Shown: positions 18,318 to 32,644 of the stretch, piece after piece | Layout of the letters: the number at the start of each line of letters is the position of its first letter | Position numbering within the stretch: the first letter of the stretch is position 1 | Source: Minisyncoccota bacterium | Lineage (GTDB): Bacteria; Patescibacteriota; Minisyncoccia; Phycocordibacterales; UBA9973 | Assembly: GCA_017992255.1 (NCBI GenBank) | Contig: JAGOPB010000004.1 | Location: 1 to 33,141, forward strand | Reading direction: 5' to 3' | DNA length: 33,141 nucleotides | The notes under the pieces: generated by a model | Databases searched by the model: none | What the model was told of the DNA's origin: nothing | The model's input: the letters and a program-made list of their open reading frames with translations, nothing else | Made by a program: the position numbers and the translations under genes

Positions 18318-20252
18318 ATGCAATTTCCCGGACAAACACCAAACAAAATAAATCAAAAAAACAGAAAATCTCCTAAAAAACCACGTGGTATAGGAGGACA
18401 ATTTAGTGGAGCAGTTTTTATGCTCATGCTGTTGGTGGCGTTTTATCTTATTATCGGCCAAAACAGTAACGAAAAAGTGGTGATACCTGTATCCGAGCTC
18501 GCTCAAAATGTGATAGCAGGCGAAGTTTCGTCTATTGTAGTAGATGGTGAAAAATTGACCGTCATGTACACCGATGAGACAAAAAAAGAATCTAAGAAAG
18601 AACTAGAGTCGTCGCTCACAGATACACTTGCAAATTATGGTGTGTCTCCAGAACAATTTGCTTCAACCTCTGTGACGGTTAAAGAACAGTCTGGTTTTAC
18701 ATACTTTCTCATAAATGTCCTACCAATAGCTTTACCAATAGTATTTGTTATTTTGATTATCTGGTTTTTGACACGACAAGTAAAAGGCGCCGGTATGCAA
18801 GCTTTCAATTTTGGTCAGTCTAAAGCAAGAATAACAGATCCAAATGACAAAAATAACAAAGTCACTTTCAAAGATGTGGCAGGTTGTAAAGAAGCAAAAA
18901 TAGAATTAGAAGAAATTGTTGATTTTTTGAAAAATCCAAAGAAATTCATAGAGATTGGCGCACGTATTCCCAAAGGAGTTTTGCTCACCGGACATCCGGG
19001 TACAGGAAAAACATTGCTTGCCCGTGCTGTCGCAGGAGAAGCAGGAGTACCATTTTTTCATCTGTCCGGTAGTGAGTTTGTTGAAATGTTTGTAGGTGTT
19101 GGTGCATCGCGAGTACGAGATTTGTTTTTGATGGCAAAAAAAGCATCGCCAGCTATAGTCTTTATAGACGAGATAGACGCTGTTGGTCGAGTACGAGGCA
19201 CAGGAGTAGGAGGAGGAAACGATGAACGTGAACAAACTCTCAATCAAATATTAGTGGAAATGGATGGTTTCGAACCAAATGAAAAAGTCATAGTGATGGC
19301 AGCAACAAACCGTTCTGATGTACTCGATCCAGCACTACTTCGTCCTGGTCGTTTCGATCGTCGTGTCATACTCGATCTACCTGATCGAAAAGATCGCGAA
19401 GAGATATTGACATTGCATTCAGCAAAAAAACCATTTGCAGAAGACGTGAATTTGAAGGTAGTTGCAGAACGTACGAGTGGCTTTTCAGGTGCAGATCTTT
19501 TTTCACTTATGAATGAGGCAGCTATACTTACTGCTCGAGAAAATCGAAAGACAATAGGACAATTCGACCTTATTCGTTCGATAGAAAAAGTGATGATGGG
19601 TCCTGAAAGAAAAAGTCACTTGATGACAAAAAAAGAAAAGAAAATAGTTGCGTATCATGAAGGTGGACATGCGCTTGTTGCATCCGTTTTGCCTCATGCA
19701 GATCCTGTTCACAAGGTGTCCATCGTTTCTCGAGGACGGGCAGGGGGATATACACTCAAGATTCCTTTAGAAGAGAGAAAATTGCAATCCAAAAAAGAAT
19801 TTCTCGATGATATTGCGATGTCTCTCGGAGGATACACTGCAGAAGAAATGGTGTTTGGGGATGTCACCACCGGTCCTTCAAACGATTTACAGGTTGCGAC
19901 CTCACTTGCTCGTGCTATGGTGACACGATGGGGGATGAGCGATGCAGTTGGTGCTATGGCGCTCGAGAGTGATGGTGGAAGAGCTTTGTTTGGAAGTGGA
20001 ATAGAAGATGATGAACTTGCAAAGGGAAGTGCGCAAAAAATCGGTATAGAAGTGAAGAAAATTATGGATGAAGCAAAAGCCCGTGCTATAGATGTGCTGA
20101 CAAAACACCGAAAAGCCCTCGATGCAATAGCTACTCGATTGATCGAAGTAGAAACCCTCGAACAACCAGCATACGAAGAGATAATCAAAGCTCATGGTAT
20201 CAAATTGAAAAAACTCGAAGACGGTGAGACAGCTGTTGATATAGCAGGGTAG
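18318..20252 (+). CDS. ftsH: ATP-dependent zinc metalloprotease FtsH
   Basis: A membrane-bound AAA+ protease that degrades misfolded membrane proteins and selected cytosolic targets. Order along 644 residues: TM1 about 29-47, periplasmic domain, TM2 about 130-151, Walker A GHPGTGKT (225-232), Walker B VFIDEID (281-287), second region of homology with RPGRFDR (342-348), zinc motif HEGGH (447-451) and the third-ligand region [10 protein letters not shown] (Asp523). Two small departures: His for the usual Pro in the Walker A (GPPGTGKT) and Gly for Ala in HEAGH. Catalytic His447, Glu448 and His451 are kept, so the protease should be active. FtsH also removes tmRNA-tagged proteins in many bacteria, which fits the adjacent smpB-ssrA. 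Confidence 0.96.
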
Positions 20253-20922: not shown

Positions 20923-21885
20923 ATGCATATGAATAGTTTTCTTTCACAATTAAAGCTTAAGCTCATGAAAATATACTTAATTAGTTGGCTATATAATTGC
21001 ACTAAACTACTGATTTGCAATTGGAATTATGGAAATAATTATATTTCGATTTCTTGGCACTATAAACTCATGACAGCCTTTTCTGTTGTTTTTATATTCC
21101 CAGCAGAGCGTATTTCTTCTCAAAAGAAATATTATAAAGTAATATTTCGTTTCTTGATTATTATGCGTATCGGTGATGAGATTTTTGACCAAAATATTAG
21201 AACGCATCAACGATACAAGATGAAGAATGCAGTTGAAAAGTTGCTCCAAGCTTCTTATGGTGAGAGTTTTGTCGAAGAAATTGTTCGAGTATTTTCTACA
21301 ATTGGAATACCTCATCAATTAAAACATGTACGTTTTAACTTGAATCCTGTACTATGTATATTATGGCTCCTCTACTTTGAAGAATTTACAAATGATAAAA
21401 ATGAAGAGTTTAATAACTGGATACATGAAGCGGTAATTGTTTTTTTGAAGTGTCAACTTCTTGAATTTACTGACGGTCTGGATAAAAAAGAAGAGTATCA
21501 AAAAATATTTTATTTTGGGACTGTGAATCTTGGAAAATCATTTTTATCAATAGATAAAACTGTTAACATTTCAAGAGAAAAAGAGTTAATCGGCCTCTGT
21601 TCTTTAATGAAATTACTTGATGATCTAACCGATTTACGATGCGACCACTGTAAACAGCCGAACTACTTCCACGCTAGAGAAGATTTGTCTAAAATTGCAA
21701 ATTATCCAGCTATTATACAATTGATGATAATTAAAAAGAGACAGTCAAGTACATTCAATGAATGGTTTGTTGAGTATAAAAAATTTTGTAAAACAGTGAA
21801 ATCTTGTGAATATCTATTTCCAAATTTTTTTCTTGGACTCCTAAAGTTCAAATATTTCTCAAATCTACTAAACTTAAGAAAATGA
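20923..21885 (+). CDS. Divergent squalene/phytoene synthase-like protein
   Basis: A 320-residue, all-helical, AT-rich ORF. Two Asp-rich motifs stand about 148 residues apart: RIGDEIFDQ (82-90) and LLDDLTDLRCD (231-241). Head-to-head prenyl synthases (squalene/phytoene synthase family) have RxxDDxxD and a second (L)RDxxED motif followed by a RxYLPxxxL segment; here QPNYFHAREDL (245-255) fits that position. Upstream, HYKLMTAFSVVFIFPAER....KVIFRFLIIMRIGDE parallels the family's FYLASRLLP...R.AVYALYAFCR.ADD. The family condenses two prenyl diphosphates. This is recognition of a pattern, not a search result, and catalytic residues are partly changed (DE for DD). The start is uncertain: ATGs at 20923, 20929 and 20965 are in frame, and TTGACA is at 20896. 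Its stop overlaps the next start (ATGA). Confidence 0.45.
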   Translation: MHMNSFLSQLKLKLMKIYLISWLYNCTKLLICNWNYGNNYISISWHYKLMTAFSVVFIFPAERISSQKKYYKVIFRFLIIMRIGDEIFDQNIRTHQRYKMKNAVEKLLQASYGESFVEEIVRVFSTIGIPHQLKHVRFNLNPVLCILWLLYFEEFTNDKNEEFNNWIHEAVIVFLKCQLLEFTDGLDKKEEYQKIFYFGTVNLGKSFLSIDKTVNISREKELIGLCSLMKLLDDLTDLRCDHCKQPNYFHAREDLSKIANYPAIIQLMIIKKRQSSTFNEWFVEYKKFCKTVKSCEYLFPNFFLGLLKFKYFSNLLNLRK

Positions 21886-23525
21886 AAAGAATAATTATGT
21901 GTGGTGGAGTGACATTGGGTCATGTCATGCCACTATTAGCCGTTGCAGAAAATCTTTCTTTAGAAAACTGGAGAATTGATTTTATGAGCACAAATATTGG
22001 TTTTGAAAAAAAACTAATTTTAAAAAATGGCTATAAGTATATATCTGTTGTAGGTAGTAGAAGTTCTGAAAGATTTTCATTCATAAATCTGCAAACTTCT
22101 TTTTTCTTATTAATGGCTATTTTCAGTACAATCTGTAAATTTGCGTCAAATCGTCCAATATTAGTAATTGGTACAGGTAGTTTTGCCAGTGTTCCAGCTT
22201 ATGTTTCAGCTGTAATTTTTAGGATTCCACTGTACATTATAGAGCCAAATGCAAAGCCAGGACTAGTAAATATTTTTTTTATTCCTTTTTGTCACACATC
22301 ATACAGATTTATTATATCGAGTAAACCACATATCTCTAACAAGAATCTAGGTTTACCTCTAAGGAAAGAGTTTTTAGTACACTGCCCAACGAATGTGCTT
22401 CAAAAAAACTACTTGTTAAAGAATCTTTTGTTTGTTGGAGGTAGTTTAGGCTCATGTGAAATTAACTCCATGGTAGTACACTTAATGAAAGAAGGTTTTT
22501 TGTCAGACTACGAAATAACTTTGATTTGCGGAAAAGAAGATTATCCTTCACTTATTAGTTTAAGGACTAAAAATATAATAGTTTTTCCTTACGTCGATGA
22601 CATAGGGTTGTTATATCAGAAGGCAGATATAATTATTTCTTCGTCTGGTGCCAACACTATCGCTGAAGTTGTGAGCATGAGAAAGCCATTGATACTGGTT
22701 CCGTCAAGTAAATCTACTGGAGGGCATCAAATTCTTAATTCTGAGTTCCTTCTTGATAACTATGGAATTCCCGTTGTTAATCTTATGGAAAAAGATTGGA
22801 TAAAAAAATTTATGGGATACATAAATCAGGCAAAAGATTTTTCAATAGATAGAACAACTCTTTTGAGTCAGAATCTAGCATGTTCTGCAGGAGCAATTTC
22901 TGCCGACATTGTGGAACCCTGGTGTTGCGCTGTACTAAATACACAACTAGCAGTATATAAAAAGATATCCCGACTGTTTGATATAATTACCGCTCTAATT
23001 CTCCTAATTCCGCTTACTTTTTTTTGTATTTTTGTTTGTATCGCAATGAAAATATGTAAGCCAAGATGGCCATTAATTTTTAGGCAAATTAGAACCGGGC
23101 GGTACAGTAAACGTTTCTGGATATACAAATTCACAACACTGCCTCCTGATTTTCCTGAAGTTCCAACAAGAGATATAGTGAATTTTACAATCGATAACAC
23201 GTCGTGGATCCATAAGTTTATTCGCCAAAAGAGGATAAATGAAATACCTCAGCTGATAAATATTATTTTAGGAGATATGTCTTTTGTAGGCCCTCGTCCT
23301 GTAATCGATGCAGACCGTGAAATTATTAAACTTAGACAAGGAACACAACTTGTTCTAATCAGACCCGGAGTTACTTTCATAGATAGAATAAAAAATGGAG
23401 AGGAACTAAGTATATCAGAAAGAGTAAAGCTTGAGTTAAGCTACTTAACCGAAAAAGATTTCCTCCCTTGCTTTTTTCAAGATATGAAAATCATCCTGCA
23501 TTCTTTTTTGTTTATGTTAAAATAA
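21882..23525 (+). CDS. MurG-like glycosyltransferase fused to a PglC/WcaJ-type sugar phosphate transferase
   Basis: A 547-residue fusion. Residues 1-345 resemble MurG/GT28: GGVTLGHVMPLLAVAENL (8-25), GTGSFASVPAYVSAVIFRIPLYIIEPNAKPGLVN (97-130), LLFVGGSLGS (182-191), and SSSGANTIAEVVSMRKPLILVPSSKSTGGHQILNSEFL (253-290), the UDP-sugar site. Residues 358-547 match bacterial sugar transferases (monotopic phosphoglycosyltransferases): KKISRLFDIITALILLIPLTFF (membrane re-entrant helix), RQIRTGRYSKRFWIYKF (401-417), NEIPQLINIILGDMSFVGPRP (453-472) and RPGVT. Such enzymes load a sugar phosphate on undecaprenyl phosphate; MurG-type enzymes add the next sugar. The catalytic Asp of the DE-LPQ motif is Asn453, and the Arg of KFRT is Thr418, so the PGT half may be inactive or altered. 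It overlaps the upstream stop by four bases and precedes a vanZ-like gene by 7 nt. Confidence 0.85.
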   Translation: MKRIIMCGGVTLGHVMPLLAVAENLSLENWRIDFMSTNIGFEKKLILKNGYKYISVVGSRSSERFSFINLQTSFFLLMAIFSTICKFASNRPILVIGTGSFASVPAYVSAVIFRIPLYIIEPNAKPGLVNIFFIPFCHTSYRFIISSKPHISNKNLGLPLRKEFLVHCPTNVLQKNYLLKNLLFVGGSLGSCEINSMVVHLMKEGFLSDYEITLICGKEDYPSLISLRTKNIIVFPYVDDIGLLYQKADIIISSSGANTIAEVVSMRKPLILVPSSKSTGGHQILNSEFLLDNYGIPVVNLMEKDWIKKFMGYINQAKDFSIDRTTLLSQNLACSAGAISADIVEPWCCAVLNTQLAVYKKISRLFDIITALILLIPLTFFCIFVCIAMKICKPRWPLIFRQIRTGRYSKRFWIYKFTTLPPDFPEVPTRDIVNFTIDNTSWIHKFIRQKRINEIPQLINIILGDMSFVGPRPVIDADREIIKLRQGTQLVLIRPGVTFIDRIKNGEELSISERVKLELSYLTEKDFLPCFFQDMKIILHSFLFMLK

Positions 23526-24154: not shown

Positions 24155-24183
24155 TTGTTTTTGTATACAAAATACAGTATTAT
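24155..24183 (+). promoter_or_regulatory. Promoter of the tRNA cluster
   Basis: TTGTTT (24155-24160), 17-bp spacer, TATTAT (24178-24183). The start would fall near 24190, six bases before the first tRNA half, so the split tRNA and the inner tRNA share one transcript. Confidence 0.65.
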
Positions 24184-24195
24184 AGGAACACTTAT

Positions 24196-24232
24196 TCGCC
24201 TTTAGCTCAGTTGGTTAGAGCACAGAGCTTAT
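24196..24232 (+). pseudogene. 5' half of a tRNA (outer tRNA, split in the anticodon loop)
   Basis: From T24202 to A24232 this repeats the 5' half of the complete downstream tRNA-Ile (24290-24322 region): D-arm GCTCAGTTGGTTAGAGC, anticodon stem CAGAG and loop start CTTATA. The acceptor strand differs (TCGCCTT). After TTATA the sequence leaves tRNA homology. It has a promoter just upstream. Confidence 0.85.
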
Positions 24233-24240
24233 AAAAACAA

Positions 24241-24387
24241 GAGAGCGGGATATGTGTATGTGCTAACAATTTGATTTTAGAGTCCACCCTTAGCTCAGTT
24301 GGTTAGAGCACAGAGCTTATACCTCTGGGGTCCTTGGTTCGAATCCAAGAGGGTGGACCCTGAAATGAAACACATACATATACTCTC
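24241..24387. repeat. Inverted repeat enclosing the complete tRNA
   Basis: GAGAG (24241-24245) pairs with CTCTC (24383-24387), and 24251-24262 pairs with 24371-24382 over 12 bp with one G-T wobble; five bases bulge on the left. The stem encloses the whole tRNA-Ile and lies inside the split outer tRNA. Confidence 0.8.
24284..24357 (+). tRNA. tRNA-Ile with UAU anticodon
   Basis: A complete 74-nt cloverleaf. Acceptor CCACCCT (24284-24290) pairs with AGGGTGG (24350-24356); D-arm GCTC/GAGC; anticodon stem CAGAG/CTCTG around loop CTTATAC; variable loop GGGTC; T-arm CTTGG TTCGAAT CCAAG; discriminator A24357. CCA is not encoded (CCC follows). The anticodon is TAT at 24318-24320, which reads AUA (Ile) directly. 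Most bacteria read AUA with a CAU tRNA modified to lysidine by TilS, so this form is unusual. It sits between the two halves of another tRNA. Confidence 0.9.
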
Positions 24388-24411
24388 CGAACGCCGTTTT
24401 TATATCGTAAA

Positions 24412-24451
24412 TATACCTCTGGTTTCCTTGGTTCGAATCCAAGAGAGAGGA
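24412..24451 (+). pseudogene. 3' half of a tRNA (outer tRNA)
   Basis: TATACCTCTGG followed by the variable loop, T-arm CTTGGTTCGAATCCAAG and acceptor strand AGAGAGG plus A repeats the 3' half of the complete tRNA at 24318-24357, with changes in the variable loop (TT for GG) and acceptor. It begins at the same TATA where the 5' half stops. The two outer acceptor strands pair poorly (TCGCCTT against AGAGAGG), so the outer tRNA is probably decayed or non-standard. Confidence 0.8.
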
Positions 24452-24460
24452 CAGAATAGC

Positions 24461-24490
24461 AATAAATCACCATGTATATTGTGATTTATT
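24461..24490. terminator. Terminator between the tRNA cluster and recG
   Basis: AATAAATCAC (24461-24470) pairs exactly with GTGATTTATT (24481-24490). A/T tracts on both sides fit bidirectional use; the recG stop codon is at its edge. Confidence 0.6.
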
Positions 24491-26676
24491 TATTCAAAAT
24501 GCATTTTATTTTTTCGTGCTACTATGATTGTTTCTAGTAGAGGATATGTTGCAAGAAGGTTTTTATCTACAAGCCGTGTTGCTTCTGTTCGTGCGGCTTC
24601 TACCATTTTTATATTTTTAATTGCTTCCATACCAATGTCAGTGACGCCCCACTGCTTACCACCACCCAGCTCTCCTGCTCCACGAAGCTGAAGATCGAGT
24701 TCTGCAAGTTCGAAACCATTTTTGGCAGTTTTTAGTGCGTGAAGACGATCTGCTGTTTTGTTTGTCTTTGCATCGGCAAAGAGAAAGCAGTATGGTTGTT
24801 CACTACTTCGCATGACTCGTCCGCGTAGTTGGTGAAGTTGTGCAAGACCAAATCTTTCTGCGCCTTCGATAATTATAAGGGTTGCGTTTGGTACGTTCAC
24901 ACCAACTTCTACTACAGAGGTTGCGACAAGAATGTTTATAGTTCCAGAAGCAAAATCCTCCATAACTGATTCTTTTTTTTGTTTTGTCATTTTAGAATGA
25001 AGCACACCTATTTTTTTATCTTTGAATACATCTGCGCTGAGACGCTTTGCTTCTGCGGTGACAGATTTGCTCTGTAGTGCCATTTGTTTTTCTGGATCGG
25101 GCTCATCGATACGAGGACAGATGACATAGAGCTGACGACCTTGTGCCATCTCTTTTCTGATGAGCGTATATGCTTCGTCACGTTTTGTATCGGGTACGAT
25201 GTCGGTTATGATATGTTTTCGACCTGCAGGCATTTCATCTAAAACGGTCAGGTCGAGATCTCCGTATATAGTCAGAGCAAGTGTGCGAGGTATAGGTGTC
25301 GCAGTCATGCTGAGCAAGTGCGGAGCAAATCCTTCTTTGCGTGCAAGTTTGGCACGTTGTCCAGTTCCAAAACGATGCTGTTCGTCTATAATAACTAGAG
25401 CAAGGTCTTTGAATTGTACCGACTTTTGGATCAATGCGTGTGTGCCGATAAGAATAGGAATTTCTCCGTTAGCCACCCATTTGAGTAGTTGAGCACGAGA
25501 GATGGTAGTCCAATCATTTTTTGCTGATGCGACTTTTGTTGGAAATTTTCTACATCCACTTCCTGTAATGAGTCCTATTTGTATACCGGTGTGCGCAAAA
25601 TACTCTATAAAATTTTCAAACAATTGTGTCGCTAGTATCTCTGTTGGCGCCATGTATGCCACTTGCAGTGAGCCAAATGCTTGCGTTTTCCCTGTCTTTT
25701 TATCAAGGGGACGGGTTTTTATAACCGCATAACTCGCGCTTGCAGCTATGGCAGTTTTTCCACTACCGACATCACCTTCGAGAAGACGCGACATGGGATG
25801 CTCCTTGTCGATATCCGCGAGAATGCTGTCTATAGCATGTTCTTGTCCACCGGTCAGAGTGTAGGGAAAGCGAGTAATAAACCGCTCTACGTCATCTATA
25901 TCTGCGTCTATACTATAGGCACCAAGGTCACGAAAAGCTTTTTTATCAAGTTGTTTTGCAAGTTGAATAAAAAATACTTCTTCAAAAGCAAATCGTTTTC
26001 GCGCTGCCAATGCATCCTGTTCACTTTTTGGTGTATGGATCCACACAAGTGCAGTTTTCAGTGTGGGAAGGTGATAGGTTTCCAATATATCTTTTGGTAT
26101 GTACTCACTAATGGTGTCAAACACATCGCTCGTCATTATTTTGTGCAATGCATGATAGAGCCATTTGCTCGTAAGTCCACGCGTTTCTGGATATATAGGA
26201 TAGCGTATCTGTGTTTGTTTTTCTCCATCGTCCATAAACAGTGAATCATGTCGGTCTATAGGAAGCGTGGGTATCTTTTCGATTTCCGGATTGGTGAGTG
26301 AAAGTCCGTTTTTTCCTTCAGTGACTTTTCCAGATACTTTCACAGCGTCACCGACTTTGAACATACGCGCTAGATATGCCTGGTTGAACCAGACAATTTT
26401 TATACTACCAGTGGTATCTTCGACAACAGCCTCACCCATGGGAATATGAGTACGAAAAGATTTTTTTGTTTTTGCACTAGTGACACGACCTAAAACGGTA
26501 GCAGTTTCTCCAGCAATAAGTTCGTTGATATAATGTAGTTCTGAAATGTCTGAATAACGAGCAGGGAAGTAGAAAAGTAGATCGTTTATTGTAGCTAACC
26601 CTTGTCTCCTGAGAGCCTTTTTCTGGTTTGTATCGAGTTTTTTGAAATGTGTTTCTATAAGGTCTGTCAGTTGCAT
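24490..26676 (-). CDS. recG: ATP-dependent DNA helicase RecG
   Basis: RecG reverses stalled replication forks and migrates branched DNA. The 728-residue protein starts at ATG 26676 (MQLTDLIETHFKKLDTNQKKALRRQGL). It shows the N-terminal wedge/OB domain (ETATVLGRVTSAKTKKSF...VVEDTTGSIKIVWFNQAYLARMF), Walker A GDVGSGKTAIA, MAPTEILATQ, the DEQHRFG box, SMTATPIPRTLALTIYGDLDLTVLDEMP, VGVNVPNATLIIIEGAERFGLAQLHQLRGRVMRS and the C-terminal GAGELGGGKQWG motif. On the minus strand TATACT (26683-26688) ends six bases before this ATG, which decides against the in-frame start at 26694. Confidence 0.96.
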   Translation of the reverse strand: MQLTDLIETHFKKLDTNQKKALRRQGLATINDLLFYFPARYSDISELHYINELIAGETATVLGRVTSAKTKKSFRTHIPMGEAVVEDTTGSIKIVWFNQAYLARMFKVGDAVKVSGKVTEGKNGLSLTNPEIEKIPTLPIDRHDSLFMDDGEKQTQIRYPIYPETRGLTSKWLYHALHKIMTSDVFDTISEYIPKDILETYHLPTLKTALVWIHTPKSEQDALAARKRFAFEEVFFIQLAKQLDKKAFRDLGAYSIDADIDDVERFITRFPYTLTGGQEHAIDSILADIDKEHPMSRLLEGDVGSGKTAIAASASYAVIKTRPLDKKTGKTQAFGSLQVAYMAPTEILATQLFENFIEYFAHTGIQIGLITGSGCRKFPTKVASAKNDWTTISRAQLLKWVANGEIPILIGTHALIQKSVQFKDLALVIIDEQHRFGTGQRAKLARKEGFAPHLLSMTATPIPRTLALTIYGDLDLTVLDEMPAGRKHIITDIVPDTKRDEAYTLIRKEMAQGRQLYVICPRIDEPDPEKQMALQSKSVTAEAKRLSADVFKDKKIGVLHSKMTKQKKESVMEDFASGTINILVATSVVEVGVNVPNATLIIIEGAERFGLAQLHQLRGRVMRSSEQPYCFLFADAKTNKTADRLHALKTAKNGFELAELDLQLRGAGELGGGKQWGVTDIGMEAIKNIKMVEAARTEATRLVDKNLLATYPLLETIIVARKNKMHFE

Positions 26677-26731
26677 CCCTATAGTATAGCCCAAAAGTAA
26701 AAATATGCTTACAAAATACAGTGAAATAAAT

Positions 26732-26841: not shown

Positions 26842-27948
26842 ATGAAGAAAAATTTCTTCTTGGTAATTGCAATACTAGGTATTGCATGCGCCGCGCTCGT
26901 TTCCTGCGACAGTGGAAACACAACATCTACTGAAGTTATCTATGAAGGTCTAGACACTTCAAATGTTATGGCACCGTTTATGGTGACCTCTGAGGATCCA
27001 AATTTCATCTTAGTAAAACAAGGTGACAATCTGTGGAACCTCTCCTTGGCAAAATGGGGCGAGCCACAATGGAGGCGTTTTTTCGAAAACAATTCGTTTT
27101 TGTCCGAACCTGGCCGTGTCAGAAATAAAAATGGAGAAACCATTGTTTTTATTTATCCAGGAGAAAAACTGGATTTCAGTGGAATCAATGAAATACCCGT
27201 ATCAACACGTTTAAAAGAAACGGTTGTTACGATCATGGAAAAAGACAAGGCTGAAATCCTTGGTTTACCCTGGTGGGGTTGGGTGATTCCTGTTATTGTT
27301 TTGTGGGCGATTATTAAAGGGTTACTTGATGACGAAAGAGCATGCAGAAACAAAAACAAAAACAAAAATACTGCTGACCCTGCAACACAGGGTCCCCCGG
27401 TTTACCAAAATGGTTTGAACGATACAAACGTTCGTAATCATTATGAAAACCGTGCAGCACAGGAAGGGATAAATCTTAGTGTAAGGAATATCCGTAAGGG
27501 TAAGCTTTACAGCGAAGAAGCAATTCTTACTGAGTACAGAGATCATGACCGCCCAGCTATTTACAATGGTCAGGTTGGTTATGAAGCAGAAGTGGTATTG
27601 CCGAACGGAGAAGTGGAATTGCGTCGTACATTGCAGGATTGCGGAAACGATCTTCGCAGAGGTGCCAATATTCCAAATGTTCGCTTTATAGCTGATGCAA
27701 ATCAGCCCGAAGTACTGAATCGTCAGTCACTGGATCCAAATCTAAAAAAAAAAATTCAGACGGAAACAAAAAATCCGGACAAAACTGAGAAAGTTGCAGA
27801 AGAAAAAGCATCAGCTGGCGAGCTTATGCTTCAGATAATAGATAAGTTGCAAGAAAGTGGCGCAGATGGTGTTGAAATACACATCGGAAGCACTAACTTC
27901 AAAGCAACGAAGTTGAATAAAAATAGTGAAAGCGCAAACGGACACTAA
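26842..27948 (+). CDS. LysM-type lipoprotein with an internal membrane segment
   Basis: A 368-residue envelope protein. The N-terminus MKKNFFLVIAILGIACAALVSC is a lipoprotein signal with the lipobox LVSC, Cys22 being the lipidation site. Residues about 54-110 (FILVKQGDNLWNLSLAKWGEPQWRRFFENN...FIYPGEKLDF) resemble a LysM peptidoglycan-binding domain. A second hydrophobic segment WWGWVIPVIVLWAIIKGLL (about 144-162) is probably a TM. Beyond it lies a basic N/K-rich linker, an unknown domain (YRDHDRPAIYNGQVGYEAEVVLPNGEVELRRTL), and a Lys/Glu-rich tail. Lipid anchor plus internal TM in one chain is unusual. It has its own promoter and terminator. Function is unknown; wall attachment is inference. 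Confidence 0.7.
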   Translation: MKKNFFLVIAILGIACAALVSCDSGNTTSTEVIYEGLDTSNVMAPFMVTSEDPNFILVKQGDNLWNLSLAKWGEPQWRRFFENNSFLSEPGRVRNKNGETIVFIYPGEKLDFSGINEIPVSTRLKETVVTIMEKDKAEILGLPWWGWVIPVIVLWAIIKGLLDDERACRNKNKNKNTADPATQGPPVYQNGLNDTNVRNHYENRAAQEGINLSVRNIRKGKLYSEEAILTEYRDHDRPAIYNGQVGYEAEVVLPNGEVELRRTLQDCGNDLRRGANIPNVRFIADANQPEVLNRQSLDPNLKKKIQTETKNPDKTEKVAEEKASAGELMLQIIDKLQESGADGVEIHIGSTNFKATKLNKNSESANGH

Positions 27949-31582: not shown

Positions 31583-32644
31583 CTAAAAGAGGTGTGAGTT
31601 ATAAATCACAGGAATATTCATTTCTCGGTCCATTTTCTTAACTGCCTCTTCTTTGATGGGGTCTAGCACAAGAAGTGCTCGTATCTGTGATTGCTTAATA
31701 TCAACCCAAACCTCAACGTTCTTTTTACCTTTATCAAGCGCTTCCTTTAAGGTTTGACATTCATACTGTTTCATACGTTCTTCATAAACTCTTTTTCCTG
31801 AACGGTAGTGAGAGCCTACATCTTGGTAGAAAATCCTTTTAGCTTCATTAGTCGTATAGATAAAACCCATTTCGGCGGGCCGTGTTTTTGATCGAAATAT
31901 ATCATTATACTCACCTAACGTACCGACGGTTGCACAGACCTGCGCAGATTTATTCTGTGAATCAAACATTTCATTCATATTTTGAAACTGTGTCGTATGG
32001 ATAAGAACATTTCCGTCAGAATCACTGATCTTGTTGAGTGGGTTGGAGTTAGACATTAAAATCTCTATTTTATCTAGTGTGTTAAAAAACTCTTGCTTTT
32101 TTTGTCGTATTTTTTTATCAGATAATTTAACTCCGATCATAAAACGTCGATAGTTTTTAATGAGGTCCTGGATTATGTAATAAGCATCTAAAGGGAAAAA
32201 ATCCTTGTTCATTTTTTTAAGCTCAGATAATACGTATTGTGCCACAACACTTGTTCTGTCGACGCTTTCATGAACAAGAGATTCTTTTTCGTGGCTAGAA
32301 AGCTTGGAAAATTGTTTTTCAAAAACAGGATTTCTTTTTTCCAGAATAATAACAAGCTCTTGTATGTGCTGAGTAATACTCAAGTCTTCTGGTGCATGTG
32401 CACGAACAAGCGTGCTATATTCTTTTAGAATCTTACGAAGTTCTAAAAAAGCATCTGTATTTAACGGGCATTCTTTTTTTTCAAAAAAGTTGTGGAGTTT
32501 TGTAAGTCTCTTACTTGCTACTTCTAGTGCTAGAGATTGCATTTCGTTATAGTCTTTCTCACTCTCAAAATCCTTGGAATTAAAATTGCTAAATTCTCTA
32601 AGTTCTTCAGGTTGATATTGTTCAAAATTATTTTTCATCAACAT
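31583..32644 (-). CDS. Hypothetical protein, possible ADP-ribosyltransferase-like C-terminus
   Basis: A 353-residue protein I cannot assign. Residues 1-200 are helical and charged (KDYNEMQSLALEVASKRLTKLHNFFEKK, HIQELVIILEKRNPVFEKQFSKLS). The C-terminal part has a mixed pattern: VLIHTTQF (about 225), GFIYTTNEAKRIFYQDVGSHYRSGKR (about 272-297), NVEVWVDIKQSQIRALLVLDP (about 316-336). An H-T/S, Y/F..t..A and late E-containing strand order recalls ADP-ribosyltransferase folds, but this is weak. Its first codons overlap the end of a small upstream ORF (32628-32795). Part of it (32293-32391) was copied to 31159-31257. ATG at 32644 or 32638. Confidence 0.5.
   Translation of the reverse strand: MLMKNNFEQYQPEELREFSNFNSKDFESEKDYNEMQSLALEVASKRLTKLHNFFEKKECPLNTDAFLELRKILKEYSTLVRAHAPEDLSITQHIQELVIILEKRNPVFEKQFSKLSSHEKESLVHESVDRTSVVAQYVLSELKKMNKDFFPLDAYYIIQDLIKNYRRFMIGVKLSDKKIRQKKQEFFNTLDKIEILMSNSNPLNKISDSDGNVLIHTTQFQNMNEMFDSQNKSAQVCATVGTLGEYNDIFRSKTRPAEMGFIYTTNEAKRIFYQDVGSHYRSGKRVYEERMKQYECQTLKEALDKGKKNVEVWVDIKQSQIRALLVLDPIKEEAVKKMDREMNIPVIYNSHLF
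32293..32391. repeat. 99-bp duplication, copy 2 (inside the 353-aa gene)
   Basis: Direct repeat of 31159-31257 with one mismatch. Here it is part of a continuous coding frame, so this is probably the source copy. Confidence 0.92.

Follow-up and report, generated by a model that had tools for sequence, protein, structure and literature searches.

In a streamlined genome, a palindromic mobile repeat has probably inserted into the anticodon loop of what is likely the only tRNA gene for reading AUA, and an intact copy of that tRNA, held in the hairpin loop of the repeat, has probably replaced the broken gene. The locus lies in the 33,141-nucleotide stretch of DNA analysed here (contig C9; hereafter the window), which comes from a genome of approximately 700 kb in 49 contigs (89% complete). 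Between ftsH and recG, the window carries one intact tRNA-Ile(UAU) with half-copies on either side. There are about 32 tRNAs in the genome, and only tRNA-Ile(UAU) has half-copies on both sides. The insertion of a palindromic repeat at the TATA of the anticodon loop is well supported; from it and the comparisons below, we infer the mobility of the repeat, the processing of the locus, and the order of events.

Structure of the nested locus

The sequence-only reading had described a tRNA-Ile(UAU) lying within the anticodon loop of a split tRNA, with halves that are near-copies of the inner tRNA and break at the same point, and these observations were confirmed. A covariance-model search (Rfam RF00005) found the inner tRNA at 24284-24357 with 69 bits, and ARAGORN called it as tRNA-Ile(TAT) at 24283-24360. 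All 21 of its 21 stem pairs are formed. The halves are linked to it by two direct repeats, 24199-24233/24287-24321 at 97% identity and 24318-24358/24412-24452 at 90%. The outer tRNA is interrupted at TTATA (24229-24233) and continues at TATA (24412-24415), and its acceptor strands, TCGCCTT and AGAGAGG, pair at five of seven positions, with two mismatches and two G-T pairs. The features of the locus are collected in Table 1.

Table 1. Coordinates of the nested tRNA-Ile(UAU) locus and its neighbours in the window.
Feature	Position	Strand	Description	Basis
ftsH	18318-20252		lies 5' of the nested locus	
5' half, outer tRNA-Ile(UAU)	24196-24233	+	anticodon-loop end at TTATA	97% identity to inner 5' half
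Left arm of palindrome E	24230-24262	+	stem 1 TATAAAAAC, GA-rich internal-loop strand, stem 2	covariance model R1, fold
5' flank of inner tRNA	24270-24290	+	extends acceptor stem	inverted repeat with 24350-24370, 86% complementary
Inner intact tRNA-Ile(UAU)	24284-24357	+	apical loop of E hairpin 1	Rfam RF00005, ARAGORN
3' flank of inner tRNA	24350-24370	+	extends acceptor stem	inverted repeat
Right arm of palindrome E	24371-24403	+	stem 2, GA-rich strand CCGAACGCC, stem 1 GTTTTTATA	covariance model R1, fold
E hairpin 2, TATAT-CGTAA-ATATA	24401-24415	+	ends in right-hand TATA copy	sequence, same in relatives
3' half, outer tRNA-Ile(UAU)	24416-24452	+	anticodon 3' stem, T-arm, acceptor AGAGAGG	90% identity to inner
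A+T-rich hairpin	24461-24490	+	possible weak terminator	inverted repeat; terminator scan negative
recG	24490-26694	-	lies 3' of the nested locus	

The bulged stem reported earlier for the insert (24241-24262/24371-24387) is present and is longer than claimed, being closed by TATAAAAAC/GTTTTTATA (24230-24238/24395-24403) and continued by the extension of the inner acceptor. The locus as a whole forms one long hairpin composed of the outer halves, the closing pair of strands, the insert stem, and the extended inner acceptor, with the inner tRNA at its tip. The nested region has a fold energy of -98 kcal/mol (z -6.1), which none of 100 shuffles equalled, and when folded as DNA it gives a z of -5.7. 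The extended acceptor stem was considered as a hallmark of nesting and dropped as unspecific, as other tRNAs score too. That one promoter and one terminator enclose the locus, as had also been claimed, is plausible at most, as neither passed its scan: by eye, TTGTTT-17-TATTAT at 24155 has 8 of 12 matches, no candidate at the nested locus passed a sigma-70-like scan, and the A+T-rich hairpin at 24461-24490 was not called as a terminator. The insert carries no gene other than the tRNA, and no recombinase gene was found inside it.

Elsewhere in the window, the open reading frame at 21882-23525 encodes a MurG-like glycosyltransferase (GT28 N and C domains) fused to a bacterial sugar transferase domain, and those at 26842-27948, 31583-32644, and 20923-21885 (320-368 aa) have no Pfam match.

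Nested loci in relatives

The window arrangement is not a local accident, for relatives repeat it. The relatives recovered by sequence bear the names Parcubacteria, Nomurabacteria, Yonathbacteria, and Wolfebacteria, and nested tRNA-Ile(UAU) genes were seen in at least 20 loci from distant families of one order of Patescibacteria (Nomura-, Yonath-, Wolfe-, and other Parcubacteria). These loci share a plan in which a 5' half ending in GCTTATA leads into a palindromic arm, after which come the intact tRNA-Ile(UAU), a second arm, and TATA with the 3' half. The 73 loci read had been enriched for nesting; by a mechanical criterion, 16 of them have both halves broken at the anticodon loop, as do at least five others in which one side is degraded. 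About 6-7 nested loci were recognized by eye among 100 relatives searched. When the interrupted-half pattern was compared with 84,980 bacterial and archaeal species, 10 contigs matched, nine of them from Patescibacteria, and the tenth (L124) has no tRNA. An exact search of viral contigs found no interrupted halves. No earlier description of the arrangement was found in the open-access literature searched.

In other relatives, a single intact tRNA stands beside ftsH and represents the empty site, so that the same-locus comparison suggested in the sequence-only reading showed an uninterrupted tRNA in some relatives, not three in tandem. Nesting also occurs at several levels: L120, L131, and L078 have at least two outer 3' halves, of which the outermost is the most decayed. 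Similarity among the flanks of inner tRNAs exceeds that of shuffles, but non-nested loci show it too, and it was set aside.

Specificity for tRNA-Ile was ruled out, because a nested tRNA-Ala(UGC) was seen along with tRNA-Ile(GAU) in two genomes rich in the repeat described below. The tRNA-Ile(GAU) in G105 (L224 1270-1640) and the tRNA-Ile(GAU) and tRNA-Ala(UGC) in G169 (L256 and L262) are nested in the anticodon loop of decayed copies of themselves with palindromic arms, and these arms do not score with the model of that repeat. As a separate observation in G105 and G169, many tRNA genes (L225, L226, L227, L233, L234, L243, L259, L266, and L267) have their own 3' end repeated behind them, first in inverted and then in direct orientation. 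These copies start at the T loop, surround a conserved stretch of approximately 85 nt or more, and appear to make up a second family of palindromes linked to tRNAs.

The insert belongs to a dispersed repeat family

The window insert belongs to a family of dispersed palindromic repeats, here named E; scans of the insert against the known structured RNAs of Rfam found no E-like family. Without cargo, E is approximately 70-90 bp long and consists of two hairpins, in the order TATA, stem 1, internal loop, stem 2 with its loop, stem 1', and a small hairpin TATAT-N-ATATA, the last of which recurs in relatives. Stem 1 is complementary but free in sequence. The internal loop is conserved as RARYGAR / YGARYGMYG (double GA), and its sequence could allow two pairs of sheared G-A, separated by two pairs that covary.

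A covariance model of E was built on alignment A1 of 12 sequences from copies without a tRNA inside. Of 397 genomes from the order, 156 contain matches to it, frequently numerous ones and mostly off tRNAs; G105 and G237 have at least 12 scored copies each. The copies found within a genome are nearly identical but sit in unrelated flanks, as expected if the repeat has spread. E thus shows what characterizes dispersed palindromes, namely many copies at unrelated sites per genome and a defined target site. Model R1, from whose training the window was left out, matches 24230-24415 across the nested tRNA with an E-value of 8e-5. In 36 aligned copies, 96.4% of cells are paired and both sides change in 10 of 13 pairs; the covariation score is 0.499, compared with 0.160 when shuffled (0/500) and at most 0.10 with partners slid, in an alignment that was fitted to the structure and therefore leans towards it. 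One candidate copy outside tRNAs (L086 in G046) was discarded, as it extends over the end of a gene and possibly represents a different feature. No E was found in viral contigs by exact search.

TATA forms the first four bases in 32 of 37 dispersed E copies and is preceded by T in 26 of the 37 (p = 2e-7), a preference that matches the tRNA site CTTATA. With these TATA ends and the preceding T, a tiny element at the anticodon loop with TATA duplicated is the best fit among the three options offered by the sequence-only reading.

We also searched for a mover of E. None of 15 Y1 transposase loci from E-rich genomes has E at its ends, and Y1 is absent from 3 of 10 E-rich genomes; Y1 (IS200/IS605, RAYT) transposase was accordingly rejected as the mover, being unlinked to E in the genomes tested. 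No transposase or integrase tied to E was found.

E copies were observed in or beside other RNA genes as well. One in G169 (L181 1492-1610 and 2383) lies in the apparent P1 loop of an ORF-bearing group I intron of the 23S rRNA gene, at site L1923 (I-CeuI), where the exon continues at ACGGTCCTAAGG. A different insertion in that 23S rRNA gene (L181 221-292) contains a complete tRNA, probably tRNA-Ala(GGC). At L169 1501-1642 and L179 1501-1694, E copies adjoin tRNA-Trp(CCA) and a 24-nt copy of the tRNA-Gly(TCC) 5' end; the first E arm is the adjoining tRNA's own 5' end (TATAGGCCC, TATACCCGC), which indicates that E stem 1 can contain target sequence.

Outer copies decay while inner copies stay intact

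The sequence-only reading had favoured decay of the outer copy, and stem pairing across loci supports this. Both halves could be read in 12 loci. Across these, 7 of 252 stem positions are unpaired in the outer copies versus 0 of 252 in the inner ones (Fisher p = 0.015; the L062 acceptor, re-aligned by hand, contributes one mismatch), and unpaired positions occur in 5 of 12 outer versus 0 of 12 inner copies (p = 0.04), counts that depend on curated joins and few loci. Outside this count, the D or T loop of the outer copies holds additional hairpins in L061, L065, L078, L085, L119, and L128. The D-loop hairpins (L061, L078, L119, L128, and L085), such as CCTGCCTGCCGGTAGGCAGG, leave the D stem intact. 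The outer tRNA is still perfectly paired in some loci (L064, L120, L123, and L130). Taken together, the sequences suggest that outer copies behave like relics and the inner tRNA like the gene.

Probable dependence on the nested tRNA for AUA decoding

The window genome has two tRNA-Met(CAU) genes, which we take to be the number expected for an initiator and an elongator. TilS was above the cut-off in none of 100 genomes, 40 of which gave sub-threshold TilS-like matches, and it had no match at all in the window genome (at 89% completeness). From the two tRNA-Met(CAU) genes and the lack of TilS above the cut-off, tRNA-Ile(UAU) is probably the sole AUA reader, so its breakage without replacement should be lethal. 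Such lethality would explain why inner and outer tRNAs are always the same isoacceptor, including at the tRNA-Ile(GAU) and tRNA-Ala(UGC) loci. Because no other AUA-reading tRNA was detected in the window genome, the cell would depend on the tRNA inside the element, which would make that tRNA essential.

Proposed mechanism and alternatives

In the proposed mechanism, E would enter the anticodon loop (CTTATAC) of an ancestral tRNA-Ile(UAU) and split the gene, leaving TATA on both sides, and the role of the broken gene would pass to an intact tRNA-Ile(UAU) held in the palindrome's loop. One transcript probably spans the locus; the inner tRNA would be cut out of its long stem by RNase P and a nuclease acting at the 3' end, and the outer halves would be scars. 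The inner tRNA could become the next target in a repeated cycle, producing dolls within dolls and swapping the tRNA allele each time.

Two routes by which the intact tRNA came to lie in the palindrome were considered: it may have arrived inside E, or it may have been copied in after E insertion. At the syntenic site beside ftsH in one genus, the acceptor type GCGCGTG lies inside CCGCCCC in two species and the reverse is seen in a third; moreover, 7 of 12 loci have an inner acceptor that does not match the outer one. These inside-out alleles and differing acceptors would fit serial replacement by outside tRNA alleles, at least in part. A bolder reading is that E and its tRNA are a homing, addictive unit, which imports its own allele, destroys the resident tRNA for a codon with no other reader, thereby becomes indispensable, and has driven serial replacement of tRNA-Ile(UAU) and, with other palindromes, of tRNA-Ile(GAU) and tRNA-Ala(UGC) across Patescibacteria; we put this forward tentatively, as possible but doubtful. 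A freely moving E-tRNA cassette is disfavoured, because it should land elsewhere too, yet no tRNA was seen in any of the 38 dispersed E copies.

The second route corresponds to an origin in place, in which E hit one of two alleles or tandem copies of tRNA-Ile(UAU) and the intact allele was copied into the E loop by break repair or by template switching at the hairpin tip. E with tRNA cargo occurs only at matching tRNA loci, the cargo lies in either hairpin 1 or hairpin 2 of the insert, inner and outer tRNAs are often near-identical (L064, L122, L123, and L127), and at L085 an intact tRNA is followed by a tandem copy interrupted by E, all of which speak for copying in place. The differing acceptors and inside-out alleles instead suggest import from other lineages, and we regard a purely local origin as rather unlikely.

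An intron-like or split tRNA, in which the insert folds and the outer halves meet and are spliced to yield two tRNA-Ile(UAU) per transcript, is one of the earlier options and is very unlikely. The outer stems decay where the inner stems do not, further hairpins often sit in the outer D and T loops, and E is found mostly outside tRNAs. In addition, the tRNA-splicing endonuclease (PF01974) was found in 0 of 60 relatives while four archaeal controls were positive, and no group I core (RF00028, gathering score) was found in the window, where the arms of the insert total approximately 100 nt, while the same search was positive in the 23S gene of a relative. In its favour are the very stable fold that brings the halves together, the conserved GA internal loop and covarying hairpin, and the outer halves that differ from the inner ones yet are fully complementary, such as CCGCCCC/GGGGCGG in L130. 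The remaining option, that a tandem array of tRNAs simply decayed or that the assembly collapsed, would agree with the decay of the outer halves and with the mostly fragmented metagenome assemblies by which CPR genomes are sampled, but is refuted as a collapsed array and highly improbable in any form, given the identical break point, the conserved insert, recurrent nesting in independent assemblies of different projects with several copies on contigs longer than 400 kb (L126, L127), and the one intact tRNA, not three, at the syntenic empty site in relatives.

Comparison with known systems

The proposed insertion by E has a functional parallel in islands with tyrosine recombinases, which use a tRNA gene as the insertion site and restore what the insertion destroys. 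Tycheposons likewise adjoin tRNAs and encode a tyrosine recombinase (PMC10872708). As in these systems, a tRNA gene is the site and the E insert supplies what was destroyed. However, the islands and tycheposons are kilobase-sized, encode a recombinase, and have the tRNA at one end of the element, whereas the window insert is shorter than 200 bp, has no gene but the tRNA, and holds the whole tRNA inside.

In being short, dispersed, and palindromic, E resembles the Rickettsia and Wolbachia palindromic elements (RPE, WPE) and REP/MITE-like repeats. RPE copies occupy spacers of reduced genomes, one of which is the rpmE-tRNA-fMet spacer (PMC1950309). E differs from all of these in its two hairpins, TATA ends, and conserved GA loop, and in recurring in tRNA anticodon loops while holding a full copy of the tRNA that is broken.

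Split, permuted, and intron-containing tRNAs share with the window locus an interruption in the anticodon loop and complementary strands that unite the halves (PMC4033280). Split tRNAs are archaeal and require a bulge-helix-bulge and a splicing endonuclease, and the known bacterial tRNA introns are only of group I (PMC4033280). In contrast, no splicing endonuclease was found in the 60 relatives and no group I core in the window, and the outer halves of the nested loci decay.

None of the known systems compared combines a palindrome of less than 200 bp, a site in the anticodon loop, and a full tRNA copy inside. E is a structured repeat family outside Rfam that enters loops of RNA genes, both tRNA anticodon loops and the apparent P1 loop of a 23S group I intron, and intron-allowing tRNA finders may report false spliced tRNAs at nested loci. 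The nested arrangement makes the turnover and allele swaps of single-copy tRNA genes in streamlined genomes testable. If the proposed mechanism is true, a repeat would secure its place in a genome by very small means, breaking an indispensable tRNA and holding its sole working copy.
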